From positions 1 to 64,000 of the forward strand of contig NZ_FOQE01000004.1 in assembly GCF_900113675.1 (NCBI RefSeq): 64,000 nucleotides of DNA, read 5' to 3'. Source of the DNA: Pisciglobus halotolerans. GTDB taxonomy: Bacteria > Bacillota > Bacilli > Lactobacillales > Carnobacteriaceae. The position numbers were made by a program, and so were the translations under genes. Of this stretch, positions 22,174 through 50,080 are shown piece after piece. The notes beneath the pieces were generated by a model. It ran no database searches. It had not been told where the DNA came from and saw nothing but the letters and a program-made list of their open reading frames with translations. Numbering within the stretch: the first letter of the stretch is position 1; each line of letters starts with the position of its first letter.

Positions 22174-22348
22174 AACAAAAAGCGAAGATAAGAGAAAGTA
22201 ACTGAAAGGAGACGTCCACAGAGAGTCTGCAAAGGTGGAAGCAGATGACGGAACTTCAGCGAAGTGCCTCTTTGAGCTGCAGCGTCGAACACCAAACCAG
22301 TAGACCCTGCCGGCTTGTCACCGATAAAAAACAACAAGGCTATGAACT

Positions 22349-22418
22349 AGGATGCGGAGAAACACGGTTAGAAAGCGAAGACTATCGTCATCCTGACGCA
22401 AGCAACCCAGCGAAGCGG
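22349..22418 (+). repeat. Interspersed element, copy 1 (inside the T-box leader)
   Basis: AGGATGCGGAGAAACACGG and what follows match 58095-58163 at about 58 of 70 positions by eye, most differences being transitions. The other copy forms the 3' end of rsmC. Confidence 0.8.
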
Positions 22419-22459
22419 TTGTGCGGACAGGATAAGATAGACAAAGCTTTCTGTGTTTC

Positions 22460-22548
22460 GCAGCTCAACTACCAGGATGCGGAACGAGACTCTACCTCGT
22501 GCAGCTCAACTACCAGGAAGCGGAACGAGGTCGAAAGAGTCGATAGGG
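22460..22548 (+). repeat. Palindromic GGAWGCGGA/GCAGCTCAAC element in the T-box leader
   Basis: Two GCAGCTCAAC-taccagga(t/a)GCGGAACGAG units stand in direct repeat (22460 and 22501). Between them GACTCTACCTCGT pairs with ACGAGGT-cgaa-AGAGTC to form a long hairpin. The same modules recur between rpoB and rpoC at 62.6-63.0 kb. Confidence 0.8.
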
Positions 22549-22690
22549 CATTCTGAAAAGTATTCTGAGATCATAGCGAAAAAAAGTGGAACCACGCTAA
22601 CAGCGTCTTTTATTGTGCTCGTCACATAAAAGGCGCTGTTTTGTTATGATTAGCTAGTATTTAACACTACGTTGAAAGCTGTTGTGCTGC

Positions 22691-30604: not shown

Positions 30605-31025
30605 CACTGAGACTTTGCACCATTAAAGGCTTTTTCGCTTTTTCCTATCGCACCAGGACCAATTTGTTGCAAAACTGCATAATAATCGGTCCTGTGAACG
30701 AGTTTGCGGTTTTTCGTTCTGAACTTGATCACAGAGACCTGGGCTATGAACGAGTTGAAGATTCTACTCTCTGAACTTGATCACAGCAACCTGGTCTATG
30801 AACAAGTTGAAGATTTTTCTCTTTGAACTTGATCACAGCAACCTGGTCTATGAACAAGTTGAAGATTTTTCGTTCTGAACTTGATCACAGCAACCTGGTC
30901 TGTAAACAAGTTGCAAGTTTTACTCCCTGAACTTGATCACAGAAGTCTGGTCTGTGAACGAGTTGCAAGTTTTACGCTCTGAACTTGATCACAGCAACCT
31001 GATCTGTAAACGAGTTGTGGCACAA
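30605..31025 (-). repeat. 52-bp repeat array 2 with shared flank (inverted copy of array 1)
   Basis: Units with GAACTTGATCACAG start at 30721, 30773, 30825, 30877, 30929 and 30981, a strict 52-bp period. The reverse complement of an array 1 unit matches these at about 42 of 52 positions by eye. The flank 30605-30690 is the reverse complement of 22976-23045 (actttgcaccattaaag, atttgttgcaaaa). Arrays 1 and 2 are therefore inverted copies of one cassette flanking cysE-nrdG. Confidence 0.9.
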
Positions 31026-43454: not shown

Positions 43455-44015
43455 TTACTCCGCTTTTTGGCATAAGGTTTCTTTTTCATGCGTTTGGCGA
43501 AAAAGTTTTAAGGTGTTGATATGGGCCATCATGTAGTTGGCTAGAATCCCATTGGCAATACCAGCTAGGATACCCATAAAAGAGAGGACAGGCAAGTACA
43601 AGAGAACGGTCCATGAACGCGCAATGACACTGGCCACAAGCAATTGTCCTACGTTGTGCAAAATCCCGCCAGCTGCGCTAATGCCAATGATGCTGACACG
43701 TTTTGGTCCCAACAGTTTTACCAGCAGCATGCCTAGATAGCTGAGAAAAGCACCGACACAGCTGTAAAGGAAGGTAGAAAAAGTCCCGCCCAGCAAAGTG
43801 GTCACCAAGAGCCGCATCCAAACAACCGTAAAGCTGTCTTTCAACGGCAGTGTAAAGATAGCGATGATCGTGATCAGATTGCCGATCCCAAGCTTTGCAC
43901 CAGGAGCAAAAGCAAATGGAAAAGGAATCATCCTTTCGATTAGACTCAAGACAACAGCCTGAGCAGCGAGTAAAGAAATATAAATCATTTTCTGGCTTTT
44001 TGTCATGATCAACAC
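43455..44015 (-). CDS. Gx transporter / heptaprenyl diphosphate synthase component I family protein
   Basis: This 186-aa integral membrane protein has about five segments: ..MIYISLLAAQAVVLSLIERMIPFPFAFAPGAKLGIGN is the recognisable start of the family, with GGILHNVGQLLVA further on. Proteins of this family accompany polyprenyl synthase and Ndh2 in flavin-based electron transfer loci, where one is called EetB; I base that equivalence on context and family. It lies 46 bp after dmkB, in the same direction. The molecular role is unproven. Confidence 0.75.
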   Translation of the reverse strand: MLIMTKSQKMIYISLLAAQAVVLSLIERMIPFPFAFAPGAKLGIGNLITIIAIFTLPLKDSFTVVWMRLLVTTLLGGTFSTFLYSCVGAFLSYLGMLLVKLLGPKRVSIIGISAAGGILHNVGQLLVASVIARSWTVLLYLPVLSFMGILAGIANGILANYMMAHINTLKLFRQTHEKETLCQKAE

Positions 44016-44061
44016 CCTTATCTATTTGGATCCTTTAGTCTATATTAGTTTGACGAGTCTA

Positions 44062-45042
44062 TTAAAGATTTCGATTAAGTAGCTGAAGCGTCAATTTTCG
44101 AAGGGTTTCTTTTTCTGACTTATCAGGCAAACGATTGATGCGTCTCATTGCTTTTTCCGTATACTTTTCAGCTAAATGTTGCGCTTTTTCCACTCCGCCT
44201 AACGCAACGACCAGCTGTTGTACTTTGCGCGTGTCTTCATCGGTCATCTGTTCCCGCTTCGATAGTAGTGTGATAAATGAGTCAGCGTCCTTTTGCATCG
44301 CAAAAAGAAGCGGAGCCGTATAAACGCCTTGTTTAACATCTTCTAAGACAGGTTTTCCAAGTCCATCCGCAGTTTGCGTATAGTCGAGGATATCGTCCAA
44401 TATTTGGAAAGCCATCCCGATGTGGCTGCCGATATAATAAGCATTGCGTGCTTTTTTCTCAGGTGATCCGCCTTCTAACATGCCTGCATAGCAAGCCAGT
44501 GCGAATAACTGAGCCGTTTTGCCCGAAATTTGGGTTAAATATTGGCGAATCGTCATATCTTGTTTATACCGCAGATTCATTTGATCCAGTTCACCCATTA
44601 AGATGCGCTCCATGCCGCGCGTGTTGATCTCAAATTGATCCGTAGAGCGAGCATAACGTGCAACGAGTCGAAAAGAAACGGTAAACAAATAATCACCGGC
44701 ATAAACTGCAGCATCTTTTCCGTAACGTGCTTGTACAGTCGTTTTGCCTCTTCTTTGAGGAGAATCATCAATGATGTCGTCATGGATCAGAGTCGCAGTA
44801 TGCAGCAGTTCAACTGATGCTGCTAGTGCTTGAGCACGTTCAGGCTCATGATCGGGACCAAATGTTGAAAATAAAAGAGTGTAAGCTGGACGAACCATTT
44901 TTCCGCCTGAATGGAGCATATCCTTTAAGACCGCTTCGATTTCTTTATTGCGCAGACGGATCGAACGATCAATCAGCAGTCCGACTTGCTCTAATTCAGC
45001 TGCTATCTGAGGATAAGCTTTCCAGATTGGATGAAGTTTCAT
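44062..45042 (-). CDS. dmkB: Polyprenyl diphosphate synthase (DmkB-like)
   Basis: This 326-aa trans-prenyltransferase has the two aspartate-rich motifs DDIIDDSPQRRG (first DDxxD) and ILDDILDY (second), plus GGKMVRPA near the N terminus. It should supply the long isoprenoid tail of demethylmenaquinone for the UbiA enzyme encoded at 49.1 kb. AAAGGAG is 7 bases from the ATG. It lies within the electron transfer cluster between ndh2 and the Gx protein. Confidence 0.88.
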   Translation of the reverse strand: MKLHPIWKAYPQIAAELEQVGLLIDRSIRLRNKEIEAVLKDMLHSGGKMVRPAYTLLFSTFGPDHEPERAQALAASVELLHTATLIHDDIIDDSPQRRGKTTVQARYGKDAAVYAGDYLFTVSFRLVARYARSTDQFEINTRGMERILMGELDQMNLRYKQDMTIRQYLTQISGKTAQLFALACYAGMLEGGSPEKKARNAYYIGSHIGMAFQILDDILDYTQTADGLGKPVLEDVKQGVYTAPLLFAMQKDADSFITLLSKREQMTDEDTRKVQQLVVALGGVEKAQHLAEKYTEKAMRRINRLPDKSEKETLRKLTLQLLNRNL

Positions 45043-45135
45043 AATTTTCTCCTTTCAGAATCGTAAAAATCAAAAAAAGTGAAAGCAAGTCCGTCCTCCC
45101 GCCTCCACTCAATGTTTTTTAATCAAATGTTACTT

Positions 45136-46983
45136 TTAATAAATGGATTTTTCTTTACCGTACCACCAATGGCCGACCTTTTTTTGCAACCATGGGATGA
45201 CATAGTAATCTAATCCGAATGCTCGACCAGCACCGTTCATTAAAGCAATGGCTACGAAGATAAACCAGATGTTTACCCAGTAGAACATGCCAGATAATGC
45301 AAACGAGATCGTCAATGCAATCGTTGCTGCGCTAAGCAACCAAGTGAACAAGCCGACGATCAAAGCTAAACCGATCGCAATCTCAACACAAGTCATGAAT
45401 TTTTGGAAGAACAAAGCAACATCTGTGTTTGGCAACATGACTTTCATGATGCTTTCGAACCATTTTGGTGCAGCTTTGAAGACCATCATTGGTTCTTCGC
45501 CGTATGCATAACTTAATCCGAAAATTGGTTTTGCAGCTTCTGCTGTTTGTTCAACGGCTTCAGAGGCACCCGATACAGGCGTTTGCAGCCAAGAGAAAGG
45601 AAGAGCGACCGTATCGCCGAACCAGCTTTGTGTTCCGAACAATCCGAAAGCTTTCTTCAGACCTTCAAAGAGCCACATGCTACCATAGAATACGCGCAGC
45701 GGTACGCTCCATAATACATTCCCGTATCGTGACAGATGGCCACGGAAGATGTTTCGTCTATGTTTGATATGGAAGAACTCATGGAAAATATATTGTACCA
45801 TATAATAACCTGAACGAATATCAAAGAAATATTTTAAATTGACGATGTGTTTCATTAAAAGTGCAAAGAAACCACTTAAATGAATCTTATCAAACAAGTA
45901 AGCCACACCATATTTAGAACCAACAGACACTAACGTACCTTGGTAGTTGGATTCATGCGCATGTTTTTCGCCGCCTTCAATCGCTGCGACAATGTTTTTT
46001 GCTGCTGTATGTCCGGTTTGTTCAGCTGCTTGTACGATTTGCGGAGTAGGTTTGCCGTTTTCTTCATAGTAAACTAAGTCTCCGATAACATAAACATTCT
46101 CTAATCCTTTTGCTTCCATAAACTCGTTGGCTACGAGACGACCAGCACGAGCTTTTTCTGCTCCAAAGTCAGCTGCATCTGTATTGGCTTTAACACCAGC
46201 TGTCCAAATCAATGTATGAGTTTGTAGGTTTTCTCCGGTTTTCAATTGAACAATAGTAGGAGAGACGTCCACTACAGGTGAGTCAGTAAGAATACGTACA
46301 CCTTTTTTCAGCAAATGCTTTTCAACTTTATCGGAATCGACACGCGGAATCGTCGTTAGAATGTCGCTGACTGCTTCCACCAACACAAGTTCGATCTCAT
46401 CAGCATCTATTTTATATTTATCAGCTAAGATTGGTTTCCAGTCAACCAATTCGCCCATCATTTCAATACCTGTCAAGCCGGCTCCGCATACAACAAAGCG
46501 CAACATGGCTTTTCGCTTGTCTAAGTCGCGTTCTTTCGCCGCAGCTGCCACTGTATCTTCAATATGGTGGCGAATGCGTAAAGCATCTTCCCAAGACCAT
46601 AAAGTAAAGCCGTTTTCTTTAACACCTGGTGTACCGAAGTCATTAGCTTCTGCGCCCATACCCAGAACCAAGTAATCATAAGGGAAACGACCTTGCTCAG
46701 TGAGGATCACCTTGTTTTCATGATCCAATTCAGTCACGTTGTCCGTTACCAGATGAACATTTTTTCTTCGTGCAAATAACCGTTGCAGGTCATATTGGAT
46801 AGCATCTGGTTCTACACGCCCGCCAGCTACTTCATGTAATTCTGTCATATAAGTATGATAAGGATGCCGATCGATCAATGTAATGACAATATCGGTATTC
46901 TTTTTTAATTTTTTGGAAAGTAATTTTGCTGCAGAAACACCAGAAAACCCTCCACCAACAACAACAATATTTGTTTGTGCCAT
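45136..46983 (-). CDS. ndh2: Type II NADH dehydrogenase with C-terminal membrane domain
   Basis: This 615-aa protein has the FAD-binding GGGFSGVSAAKLL at the N terminus, the NADH motif CGAGLTGIEMMGEL near residue 165, and IGDLVYYEENGKPTPQIVQAAEQTG as the second FAD segment. After residue 480 comes a DoxX-like domain with several membrane helices. This fusion of Ndh-2 to a membrane domain is the form found in flavin-based extracellular electron transfer, where the enzyme passes electrons from NADH to a dedicated quinone pool. ATG 46983 has AAGGAG at 8 bases; an in-frame GTG at 46992 overlaps the ribosome binding site. Confidence 0.92.
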   Translation of the reverse strand: MAQTNIVVVGGGFSGVSAAKLLSKKLKKNTDIVITLIDRHPYHTYMTELHEVAGGRVEPDAIQYDLQRLFARRKNVHLVTDNVTELDHENKVILTEQGRFPYDYLVLGMGAEANDFGTPGVKENGFTLWSWEDALRIRHHIEDTVAAAAKERDLDKRKAMLRFVVCGAGLTGIEMMGELVDWKPILADKYKIDADEIELVLVEAVSDILTTIPRVDSDKVEKHLLKKGVRILTDSPVVDVSPTIVQLKTGENLQTHTLIWTAGVKANTDAADFGAEKARAGRLVANEFMEAKGLENVYVIGDLVYYEENGKPTPQIVQAAEQTGHTAAKNIVAAIEGGEKHAHESNYQGTLVSVGSKYGVAYLFDKIHLSGFFALLMKHIVNLKYFFDIRSGYYMVQYIFHEFFHIKHRRNIFRGHLSRYGNVLWSVPLRVFYGSMWLFEGLKKAFGLFGTQSWFGDTVALPFSWLQTPVSGASEAVEQTAEAAKPIFGLSYAYGEEPMMVFKAAPKWFESIMKVMLPNTDVALFFQKFMTCVEIAIGLALIVGLFTWLLSAATIALTISFALSGMFYWVNIWFIFVAIALMNGAGRAFGLDYYVIPWLQKKVGHWWYGKEKSIY

Positions 46984-47038
46984 GTTGTACACTCCTTTTA
47001 TAATTGCTAACCTAATAAAAAAACTAAATAAACGTAAC

Positions 47039-47122
47039 TTGTGAAAACAATATTTAAATACTTGATAATCTTTTCACAATTAACTGTGGTTTTATTATAC
47101 ATAAACCATTATTACTTGTCTA
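47039..47122 (-). promoter_or_regulatory. ndh2 promoter with Rex-like half sites
   Basis: On the minus strand, TAGACA (47122-47117) -17- TATAAT (47099-47094) is a good promoter. Downstream in the leader stand TTGTGAAAA (47039-47047) and TTTTCACAA (47071-47079), perfect inverted 9-mers with centres 32 bp (three helical turns) apart, resembling separated Rex half sites. Confidence 0.65.
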
Positions 47123-47256
47123 GTCTATCAAGAATTTTTATAAATGAAAAAACAATGAGAGATTGAAACAGCCTCGTTTCTTCCTATATTAATGTATCCA
47201 TCTTTGGATCTTAAAAAGTCATAAAAAGTATAAAAAGATATTTTTTTAAAAAATAT

Positions 47257-47296
47257 TTGTGAATATATAGACAATCGCATTTTAAAAAGGTATACT
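47257..47296 (+). promoter_or_regulatory. pplA promoter overlapped by a Rex-like site
   Basis: TAGACA (47268-47273) -17- TATACT (47291-47296) uses the same -35 as the divergent ndh2 promoter. TTGTGAATATATAGACAA (47257-47274) resembles the Rex consensus TTGTGAAnnnnTTCACAA family, with a weaker right half, and covers the -35. Confidence 0.65.
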
Positions 47297-47375
47297 GAAC
47301 TTGTAAAAAATATCGCAGACGAATGTTATCAGTACGTTGGCGGTAAAAATAAAATCTTTTGGAGGTATTATTAAG

Positions 47376-47924
47376 ATGGAAATCAAAAAAGGGGTCAAAT
47401 TTGCAACGACTTTATTCGCTTCAGCTTTTGTTTTAGCTGCCTGTGGAAACTCAGACGAACCAGCAACAGAACAATCTAGTGCTGCATCAAGCGCAGTAAC
47501 TTCTGAAGCATCAAGCGCAGCATCATCTGAAGCATCAAGCGATCAAGCAGCTGCTGGAGATTTGCAAGACGGCTCATATAAATTAGAAGAAAAGAACTTA
47601 GACGAAAATGGCTGGCGCGTTGTGTATGAAATGACAGTAAGCGATGGCAAAATCACTGAGTCTAACTATGACTATGTAAATGAAAATGGCGATCTAAAAT
47701 CTGAAGATGAAGATTACCAAAAAGCAATGTCTGAAAAAGTTGGTACAGGCCCAGCTGACTACATTCCAGAATTGAACGCTCAATTAGAAGAAACACAAGA
47801 TCCTTCTCAAGTGGACGTTGTTTCAGGTGCAACACATTCTTCTGAATCTTTCATTAAATACGCACAACAATTGATCGACGCAGCTAAAGAAGGCAAAACA
47901 GAAACAATTGAAATCGACAACTAA
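47376..47924 (+). CDS. pplA: FMN-binding lipoprotein, PplA-like, single domain
   Basis: In this 182-aa protein, the signal peptide ends LAAC with lipidated Cys23, followed by an Ala/Ser/Glu low-complexity linker (residues 28-57). One FMN_bind domain ends in the flavinylation consensus Dxx(S/T)GAT as D147-VVSGAT153. Thr153 is the expected covalent FMN acceptor, attached by the ApbE encoded next. It should carry electrons from the quinone pool to outside acceptors such as ferric iron. Listeria PplA, as I recall, has two such domains; this has one. ATG 47376 has GGAGG at 10 bases. Confidence 0.9.
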   Translation: MEIKKGVKFATTLFASAFVLAACGNSDEPATEQSSAASSAVTSEASSAASSEASSDQAAAGDLQDGSYKLEEKNLDENGWRVVYEMTVSDGKITESNYDYVNENGDLKSEDEDYQKAMSEKVGTGPADYIPELNAQLEETQDPSQVDVVSGATHSSESFIKYAQQLIDAAKEGKTETIEIDN

Positions 47925-47987
47925 AAAAACTGACGAATGAAAGCTTTCTTCTAGCAATTCTTTCAGTTATACTAACGTATAGAATCA

Positions 47988-48022
47988 ACAGGTCTTAGAA
48001 TCCTTTCTAAGACCTGTTTTCA
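47988..48022 (+). terminator. Terminator after pplA
   Basis: AACAGGTCTTAGAA pairs with TTTCTAAGACCTGTT and is followed by TT. Readthrough would lower apbE-dmkA expression relative to the abundant lipoprotein. Confidence 0.88.
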
Positions 48023-48059
48023 ATCTTGTGTATCCAGCACTTATATAAGGAGTTTTTTT

Positions 48060-49133
48060 ATGAAAAAAGTACGTTTAGCTGCATTTATTTGTTGTTTATC
48101 TGCTGCTGTCTTTTTCTTGAGCGGTTGTCAATCAAAAAGCGGAGAAGAAAAACGAACGCTGGCAGATGATCCTTATGAAGAAACAGAATTTTTGATGGGA
48201 ACGGTTGTAAGGGTGACGGTTTATAATCAAGATAAAGAAGCGGCGGTCGATGCCGCATTTGATCGCATCCGAGAGTTGGCGGATTTTATTACTGTCGATG
48301 AAGAGCAAGAGAGTTCTGAAATCAGAACGATCAATGATGCTGCTGGTAAAGAACCGGTAGCAGTGAGGGAAGATCTATATGATTTGATCAAGTCAGCTGT
48401 TGCGTATAGTGAAAAAACGGATGGCAGTTTCGACTTAACGATCGGACCGCTCACTAGATTATGGCATATTGGCTTTCCAGATGCTCGTAAACCTGAACAG
48501 TCCGAGATCGACCAAGCTTTGGCGCTCGTCGACTATCGTAAAGTTCAATTAAATGATGAGGAAAAAACAGTCTACTTACCTGAAAAAGGCATGGAATTGG
48601 ACTTAGGCGCGATCGCTAAAGGTTTTATCACAGATGAAACAGTACAGGTGTTGAAGGATCACGATGTAGATACAGCAATCGTTGACTTAGGCGGCAATAT
48701 TTTTGTGATGGGCGACAGTCCGCGGGGAACGAGCGAAAAGTGGCATGTGGGGATTCAAGACCCATTTGAAGAACGCGGGACAATCATAGGATCGCTGCCT
48801 GTCACAAATAAATCAATCGTAACCTCTGGTATTTATGAACGTTTCTTAGAAGTAGATGGTGTCAACTATCATCACTTGATGGATCCTAAAACAGGTTATC
48901 CTTTTGATAATGAATTGGCAGGAGTGAGTGTCGTAACGAATACTTCGATCGATGGCGATGGTTTGTCTACCTCGTTATTTGCAAAAGGCTTGAAAGATGG
49001 ATTGGTCTATGTCAACCAGTTGGATGGAGTGGATGCCATCTTTGTAACAAAAGACAAGGAAGTCTATCTTTCAGACGGCTTGAAGGATTTCAAGCTAACC
49101 AATGACGATTTCATTTTAATGAACGAGGAATGA
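48060..49133 (+). CDS. apbE: FAD:protein FMN transferase (ApbE/FmnB), lipoprotein
   Basis: This 357-aa extracytoplasmic enzyme moves FMN from FAD onto Thr of proteins such as PplA. The signal peptide ends LSGC with lipid Cys23. Family marks: FLMGTVVRVTVY, DLTIGPLTRLWHIGF, LDLGAIAKGFITDE (with the conserved K), VDLGGNI and DGDGLSTSLFAKG (metal-binding Asp). Its position between the lipoprotein and dmkA matches fmnB of the Listeria system. It overlaps dmkA by 4 bases (ATGA). Confidence 0.94.
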   Translation: MKKVRLAAFICCLSAAVFFLSGCQSKSGEEKRTLADDPYEETEFLMGTVVRVTVYNQDKEAAVDAAFDRIRELADFITVDEEQESSEIRTINDAAGKEPVAVREDLYDLIKSAVAYSEKTDGSFDLTIGPLTRLWHIGFPDARKPEQSEIDQALALVDYRKVQLNDEEKTVYLPEKGMELDLGAIAKGFITDETVQVLKDHDVDTAIVDLGGNIFVMGDSPRGTSEKWHVGIQDPFEERGTIIGSLPVTNKSIVTSGIYERFLEVDGVNYHHLMDPKTGYPFDNELAGVSVVTNTSIDGDGLSTSLFAKGLKDGLVYVNQLDGVDAIFVTKDKEVYLSDGLKDFKLTNDDFILMNEE

Positions 49134-50080
49134 GTATGTCAGTAAAAACATTTTTAAAACTTGTTGAAATTCAGACTAAACTGGCCAGTTTATTTCCATT
49201 TTTGCTGGGGACGTTGTTTGCCTGTTACTATTTTGACACCTTTGACCTAGTTAATACCTTGATTTTTTTTGCGGCTATGTTGACATTTGATATGACGACG
49301 ACGGCTATCAATAACTTGATGGATTATCAAAAAGCAAAAGCGGAGGGATATAAGAAAGAAGTCAATATCATTGGTCAAACACAGCTTGCTGAAAGAACCG
49401 TGATCCGTTTGATTCTCGGCATGCTAACGCTGGCTTCTTTATTAGGGATCGTACTGGTGATTCGAACAAGCTTGCTATTGTTGTTCATGGGTGGACTGTG
49501 TTTTTTGATCGGCATTTTTTATACCTTTGGGCCTGTTCCTATTTCGCGGATGCCTTTAGGAGAAGCTGTTTCTGGCATAACAATGGGCTTCGGGATCTTT
49601 TTCATTGCTGTATTTATCAATGGTGGAGAAGGTATGCTGCTAGATCTGGCTTTTCATGGAATGCAGTTTACCTTAACCGGTGACTTAGCGGCCTTGCTGG
49701 TGATTTTGTTTGTTTCTTTGCCAACCGTTTTTCTGATCGCCAATATCATGTTGGCGAACAATACTTGTGACTTAGAGCAGGATATTGCCAATCACCGTTA
49801 TACGCTGCCTTATTACATTGGGAAGGAAAGAGCTGTCCAATTGTTTAACGGGTTGGTGTATGGCTGTTATGCGATCATTATGTTAGCTGTTTTGTTCCGT
49901 TGGCTGCATCCTGTCATGCTGCTGATCTTGCTGACGATCATTCCGATTCGAAAAAACTTGACTCTGTTTAATCGAGAACAAATAAAAGAAAAGACCTTTG
50001 TGATCGCTATTAAAAATATTGTGACTTTCAGTAGTGCAGAAGTTGTTCTGCTTGCCACTAGTTTGTTGTTTAAGGCATAA
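49130..50080 (+). CDS. dmkA: UbiA-family prenyltransferase, DmkA/MenA-like
   Basis: This 316-aa protein with about eight membrane helices carries the first Asp-rich motif NNLMDYQKAK in the loop after helix 2 and NNTCDLEQD as the second. It should prenylate 1,4-dihydroxy-2-naphthoate with the product of DmkB to give demethylmenaquinone. No men genes for naphthoate synthesis are in the window, so the naphthoate is made elsewhere or taken up. The start overlaps the apbE stop; an alternative ATG lies at 49136. Confidence 0.88.
   Translation: MSMSVKTFLKLVEIQTKLASLFPFLLGTLFACYYFDTFDLVNTLIFFAAMLTFDMTTTAINNLMDYQKAKAEGYKKEVNIIGQTQLAERTVIRLILGMLTLASLLGIVLVIRTSLLLLFMGGLCFLIGIFYTFGPVPISRMPLGEAVSGITMGFGIFFIAVFINGGEGMLLDLAFHGMQFTLTGDLAALLVILFVSLPTVFLIANIMLANNTCDLEQDIANHRYTLPYYIGKERAVQLFNGLVYGCYAIIMLAVLFRWLHPVMLLILLTIIPIRKNLTLFNREQIKEKTFVIAIKNIVTFSSAEVVLLATSLLFKA

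Follow-up and report, generated by a model that had tools for sequence, protein, structure and literature searches.

Positions 43455-50080 of the window, the 64,000-nucleotide stretch of DNA analysed here, are by homology a locus for flavin-based extracellular electron transfer (FLEET) in a lactic acid bacterium of the Carnobacteriaceae type. The system itself is known. Many fermenting Gram-positive bacteria carry this gene set and use it to unload excess electrons on iron or another extracellular acceptor. What seems new is a strongly conserved sign of Rex, a switch that senses NADH, in the control region of the locus and of its close relatives; it predicts repression of each of the two divergent promoters by Rex. 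As a whole, the findings are very probably best explained by a FLEET locus that works with a quinone made from scavenged DHNA, with PplA as a carrier, with a flavin supply via EetB and an ECF module and with promoters repressed by Rex. A displaced eetA, the lack of a dedicated FmnA and two mismatches in each Rex site count against this explanation.

The locus consists of six genes in two divergent units:

43455-44015, minus strand: eetB, an ECF S-type membrane protein (PF07456, 159.7 bits), called 'Gx' in the first-pass annotation; predicted FAD export for FmnB
44062-45042, minus strand: dmkB, polyprenyl diphosphate synthase (PF00348, 220.5 bits)
45136-46992, minus strand: ndh2, type II NADH dehydrogenase with a membrane C-terminus (PF07992 and a DoxX/DoxD-like C-terminus)
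47376-47924, plus strand: pplA, lipoprotein with a single FMN-binding domain (PF04205, 34.5 bits) and the flavinylation motif DVVSGATHSS
48060-49133, plus strand: apbE/fmnB, FAD:protein FMN transferase (PF02424, 290.1 bits)
49130-50080, plus strand: dmkA (menA type), 1,4-dihydroxy-2-naphthoate polyprenyltransferase (PF01040, 72.2 bits)

Every reading frame is open and full length, and no frameshift is seen in any of the six. The first-pass annotation had named this very set and had placed it around one shared control region; the intact frames and the matches in Pfam, NCBIfam and PDB bear this out, and the control region measures 383 bp. Its identification of FLEET, with NADH-driven reduction of extracellular acceptors, is right as far as homology can tell. 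The FLEET core, which it saw together at one place, is indeed assembled here with six genes, yet eetA lies elsewhere in the genome. DmkA exceeds the cut-off of the DHNA prenyltransferase model NF009926 (379 versus 316 bits). The closest NCBIfam model of DmkB is heptaprenyl diphosphate synthase component II, with a score below the model's cut-off. Residues 8-394 of Ndh2 match solved NDH-2 structures, and the closest solved structure to ApbE is that of the FMN transferase FmnB (PDB 7ESA, 441 bits). For pplA, the ATG at 47376, which has a good ribosome site ahead, is a likelier start than the TTG at 47337.

From these assignments we infer the following biochemistry. Ndh2 would transfer electrons from NADH to demethylmenaquinone, which DmkB and DmkA would build from DHNA taken up from outside. 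The electrons would then reach the cell surface, where FMN-loaded PplA may be one carrier, and would reduce ferric iron or soluble acceptors. ApbE/FmnB would put the FMN on PplA, using FAD exported via EetB and an ECF module. This module is probably shared with vitamin uptake, because a single EcfT was found. Repression of both divergent promoters by Rex would be lifted as NADH builds up, and the system would be switched on. The joint presence of ndh2 and pplA goes with iron reduction in Enterococcus and others (PMC8837199).

Listeria PplA is a two-site form. The PplA of the window is a short one, with one FMN domain and one DVVSGATHSS motif, thus one FMN site and not two as in Enterococcus. 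It covers the NCBIfam PplA model NF041941 at positions 2-176 of 302 only and scores below its cut-off. The single site was considered as an oddity and rejected as such, since it also occurs in Carnobacterium, Marinilactibacillus, Trichococcus, Streptococcus and some Vagococcus. No FMN_bind protein other than PplA was found in the genome; with its motif intact, PplA is the sole candidate partner of ApbE. In E. faecalis, iron reduction proceeds without PplA (PMC9864754), which counts against a fixed role of PplA in the last electron step. In Listeria, EetB binds FAD as the S-subunit of an ECF exporter from which FmnB is supplied (PMC9973259); 'Gx' alias EetB is therefore to be seen as part of cofactor loading, not of the electron path.

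A further suggestion of the first-pass annotation, to look for ribU/ecf and men genes, yielded a mixed picture. RibU is present. Neither menD nor menB was found in the genome; there was no menB match at all, and both menD-like matches turned out to be AlsS and pyruvate oxidase. With an assembly of 88 contigs and a completeness rating of 99.99%, such absences are fairly safe, not certain. Missing menD and menB in the presence of DmkA and DmkB is the pattern of a DHNA scavenger, to which DHNA or the quinone has to come from outside. The search for CbiQ/EcfT revealed one such T-subunit in the genome and no separate, dedicated FmnA. In Listeria, EcfT does not substitute for FmnA in export (PMC9973259). 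Several relatives that bear FLEET likewise have only one EcfT. The gene eetA is located on contig C63 beside an ldh gene; in Carnobacterium relatives it also lies far away from the cluster, at about 190 kb in G002 and G008, and other members of the family likewise have it at a different place.

Of course, a species that makes no naphthoquinone, keeps no eetA in the cluster and has no dedicated FmnA might leave the locus idle. The absence of menD and menB, the position of eetA on a different contig and the single EcfT would all agree with that. We consider it highly improbable, however, for the frames are all intact and similar to those of relatives throughout. Moreover, L. plantarum performs extracellular electron transfer (EET) with exogenous DHNA (PMC9888254), a Listeria eetA deletion retained EET (PMC9973259), and few EcfT are also found in many relatives with the locus. 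As a working FLEET system, the locus would place one more lactic acid bacterium among those from which EET with a scavenged quinone is expected.

The genome also encodes cytochrome bd (cydA), so oxygen may share the quinol pool. Might oxygen respiration even be the main purpose of the locus, with Ndh2 and scavenged demethylmenaquinone feeding cytochrome bd whenever heme is available, and electron transfer to the outside being minor? Ndh2, DmkA and DmkB would be enough by themselves for this, and Alkalibacterium and Lacticigenium have precisely dmkA, ndh2 and dmkB without pplA or apbE nearby. Yet intact pplA, apbE and eetB beside ndh2 have no role in oxygen respiration, and E. faecalis ndh3, which has the same context, is devoted to EET (PMC9864754). 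Oxygen as the main acceptor is thus an unlikely reading, and we prefer extracellular acceptors.

The layout was compared over about 110 loci, 80 from named records and 30 from whole-genome relatives, which partly overlap. The gene ndh2 lies next to pplA and diverges from it in nearly all Enterococcus, Vagococcus, Tetragenococcus, Carnobacterium and Marinilactibacillus. The two divergent units, which the first-pass annotation had emphasised, are therefore ordinary in Enterococcus, Vagococcus, Carnobacterium and Marinilactibacillus. Desemzia, Trichococcus and Jeotgalibaca have a single co-directional row with eetA between ndh2 and dmkB, and in Streptococcus it is eetB that diverges from ndh2. 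In Lacticigenium and Alkalibacterium (L079, L080, L082 and L083) no eetB was found near the three genes either; these loci represent a quinone-reducing core without the flavinylation part. In another locus (L053, genome G011) apbE is broken into two frames and pplA is a short match with internal stops, while ndh2, dmkB, eetB and dmkA look intact: either the flavinylation half is in decay or the sequence has an error.

The known systems resemble the locus to different degrees. Listeria monocytogenes shares Ndh2, DmkA, DmkB, PplA, FmnB (the 441-bit match) and EetB, but has eetA and fmnA within its locus (PMC9973259). Enterococcus and Vagococcus have the same genes, with ndh2 divergent from pplA-apbE-dmkA. 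In Enterococcus, however, unlike in the window, eetA stands with eetB inside the cluster, the order is ndh2-eetA-eetB-dmkB, PplA has two sites, and the Rex-like pair is not distinctive. Carnobacterium and Marinilactibacillus share the single-site PplA, the divergent layout, the operator pair and the hairpin between pplA and apbE. M. psychrotolerans comes with an 84% match in Ndh2 and the same order ndh2-dmkB-eetB, but retains eetA beside dmkA, whereas the order in Carnobacterium is ndh2-eetB-dmkB. L. plantarum, by published description, also uses DHNA that it does not make and has a shared ndh2-pplA promoter region (PMC8837199, PMC9888254).

The shared control region holds a promoter and a palindrome for each unit:

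47062-47079, no strand: Rex-operator-like palindrome 1, just downstream of the ndh2 -10 box; two mismatches to TTGTGAA-N4-TTCACAA; conserved
47094-47122, minus strand: predicted ndh2 promoter, TAGACA, 17 nt, TATAAT; 11 of 12 consensus positions, the best of the scan
47257-47274, no strand: Rex-operator-like palindrome 2, over the pplA -35 box; two mismatches; position shared with Carnobacterium and Marinilactibacillus
47268-47296, plus strand: predicted pplA promoter, TAGACA, 17 nt, TATACT; 10 of 12 consensus positions

The palindrome on the pplA side is the weaker one, its right half being partly the -35 box. TTGTGAA was first noticed by eye in the 383-bp region, and the Rex operator, published as TTGTGAAN4TTCACAA (PMC8376106), was then tested. 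Since the motif had been chosen after looking, three tests were run: a permutation, a comparison with intergenic controls and a motif-free enumeration. With permuted half-sites, a mean of 0.28 regions matched, as compared to 27 of 75 with the true one, and none of 209 permutations reached as many. Sites were present in all 15 control regions and absent from all 86 intergenic regions taken elsewhere in the same loci, a contrast whose Fisher value overstates the significance because the regions are related; in the permutation and enumeration tests this relatedness is carried in the null. Among 180,224 palindromes (16,384 half-sites with 11 spacings), TTGTGAA-N4-TTCACAA was the best, occurring within two mismatches in 15/15 related control regions versus 0/105 other intergenic regions. 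The half-site TTGTTAA ranked second.

Both half-sites, TTGTGAA with N4 spacing and TTGTTAA, are typical of Rex, and adhE is a standard Rex target. In this genome the two best clustered Rex-like sites belong to a gene that reads as adhE; genome-wide, the Rex-like pattern overall is without enrichment over its reversed control. For Carnobacteriaceae and Marinilactibacillus we lean towards the view that EET is an overflow valve for NADH, that Rex controls it jointly with adhE, and that each of the two divergent promoters has one operator. If true, this would explain when such bacteria switch EET on; a further implication is that ethanol formation and EET vie for NADH, with a single sensor over both.

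CRP/FNR-type proteins bind the similar sequence TGTGA-N6-TCACA, which is contained in the same 18-bp pattern. The conserved palindromes could accordingly bind such a regulator instead of Rex, and the cue would be oxygen or another one, not NADH. We regard this as rather doubtful: the full TTGTGAA half-site with N4 spacing scores top and TTGTTAA second, two sites lie ahead of adhE, and a survey of Lactobacillales met with Rex in all of them (PMC3616900).

The proposed control by Rex has its limits. In Enterococcus, the Rex-like site is not distinctive (2 of 38 regions within two mismatches, rank 189 within its spacing), and the claim is not extended to this genus. A Rex-like site before the displaced eetA (C63:21290) was set aside, as it is not conserved in relatives. 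A search of open-licence papers yielded no demonstration of Rex control of FLEET, though it may miss reports in subscription journals; pplA, lmo2637 and lmo2638 go unmentioned in the main text of the paper on Listeria Rex.

A last feature of the plus-strand unit is a hairpin:

47987-48018, plus strand: terminator-like hairpin between pplA and apbE; perfect stem of 14 bp, short U-tract

The fold z-score of its region is -6.28. Nearly the same sequence is found in Carnobacterium and Marinilactibacillus, and other hairpins occupy the same place in Enterococcus and Vagococcus. A simple terminator scan does not list it; as a conserved hairpin at this place it suggests a terminator. The simple reading would be a leaky one that makes pplA abundant over apbE-dmkA.

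The history of the cluster probably differs from that of its host. RpoB puts the genome closest to Desemzia (91%), with Marinilactibacillus (80%) more distant, while a tree of Ndh2, DmkB and DmkA places the window as sister to Marinilactibacillus. AU tests on the cluster tree rejected both the window with Desemzia and Marinilactibacillus with Alkalibacterium and Lacticigenium, and on the RpoB tree they rejected the window with Marinilactibacillus; these tests used quick trees, a simple model and groups named after seeing the trees. In view of this conflict, FLEET clusters have probably been exchanged between lineages. The window, like Carnobacterium and several other genomes, has the cluster about 9-10 kb from rpoB, as against ~240 kb in Marinilactibacillus, which would fit a window-like donor. 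The Desemzia type (L047, L052 and L103), nearest by RpoB, carries another kind of FLEET cluster, with all genes in one direction, which groups with those of Trichococcus and Jeotgalibaca and is likely a replacement.

Elsewhere in the window, an identical 18-bp sequence occurs twice, 156 bp apart (30717-30734 and 30873-30890). Both copies lie within one long gap between genes, downstream of those for the anaerobic ribonucleotide reductase. A T-box leader (22176-22613; 93.5 bits, just over the family cut-off) is situated between gltX and the genes for a cysE-type acetyltransferase and cysS.
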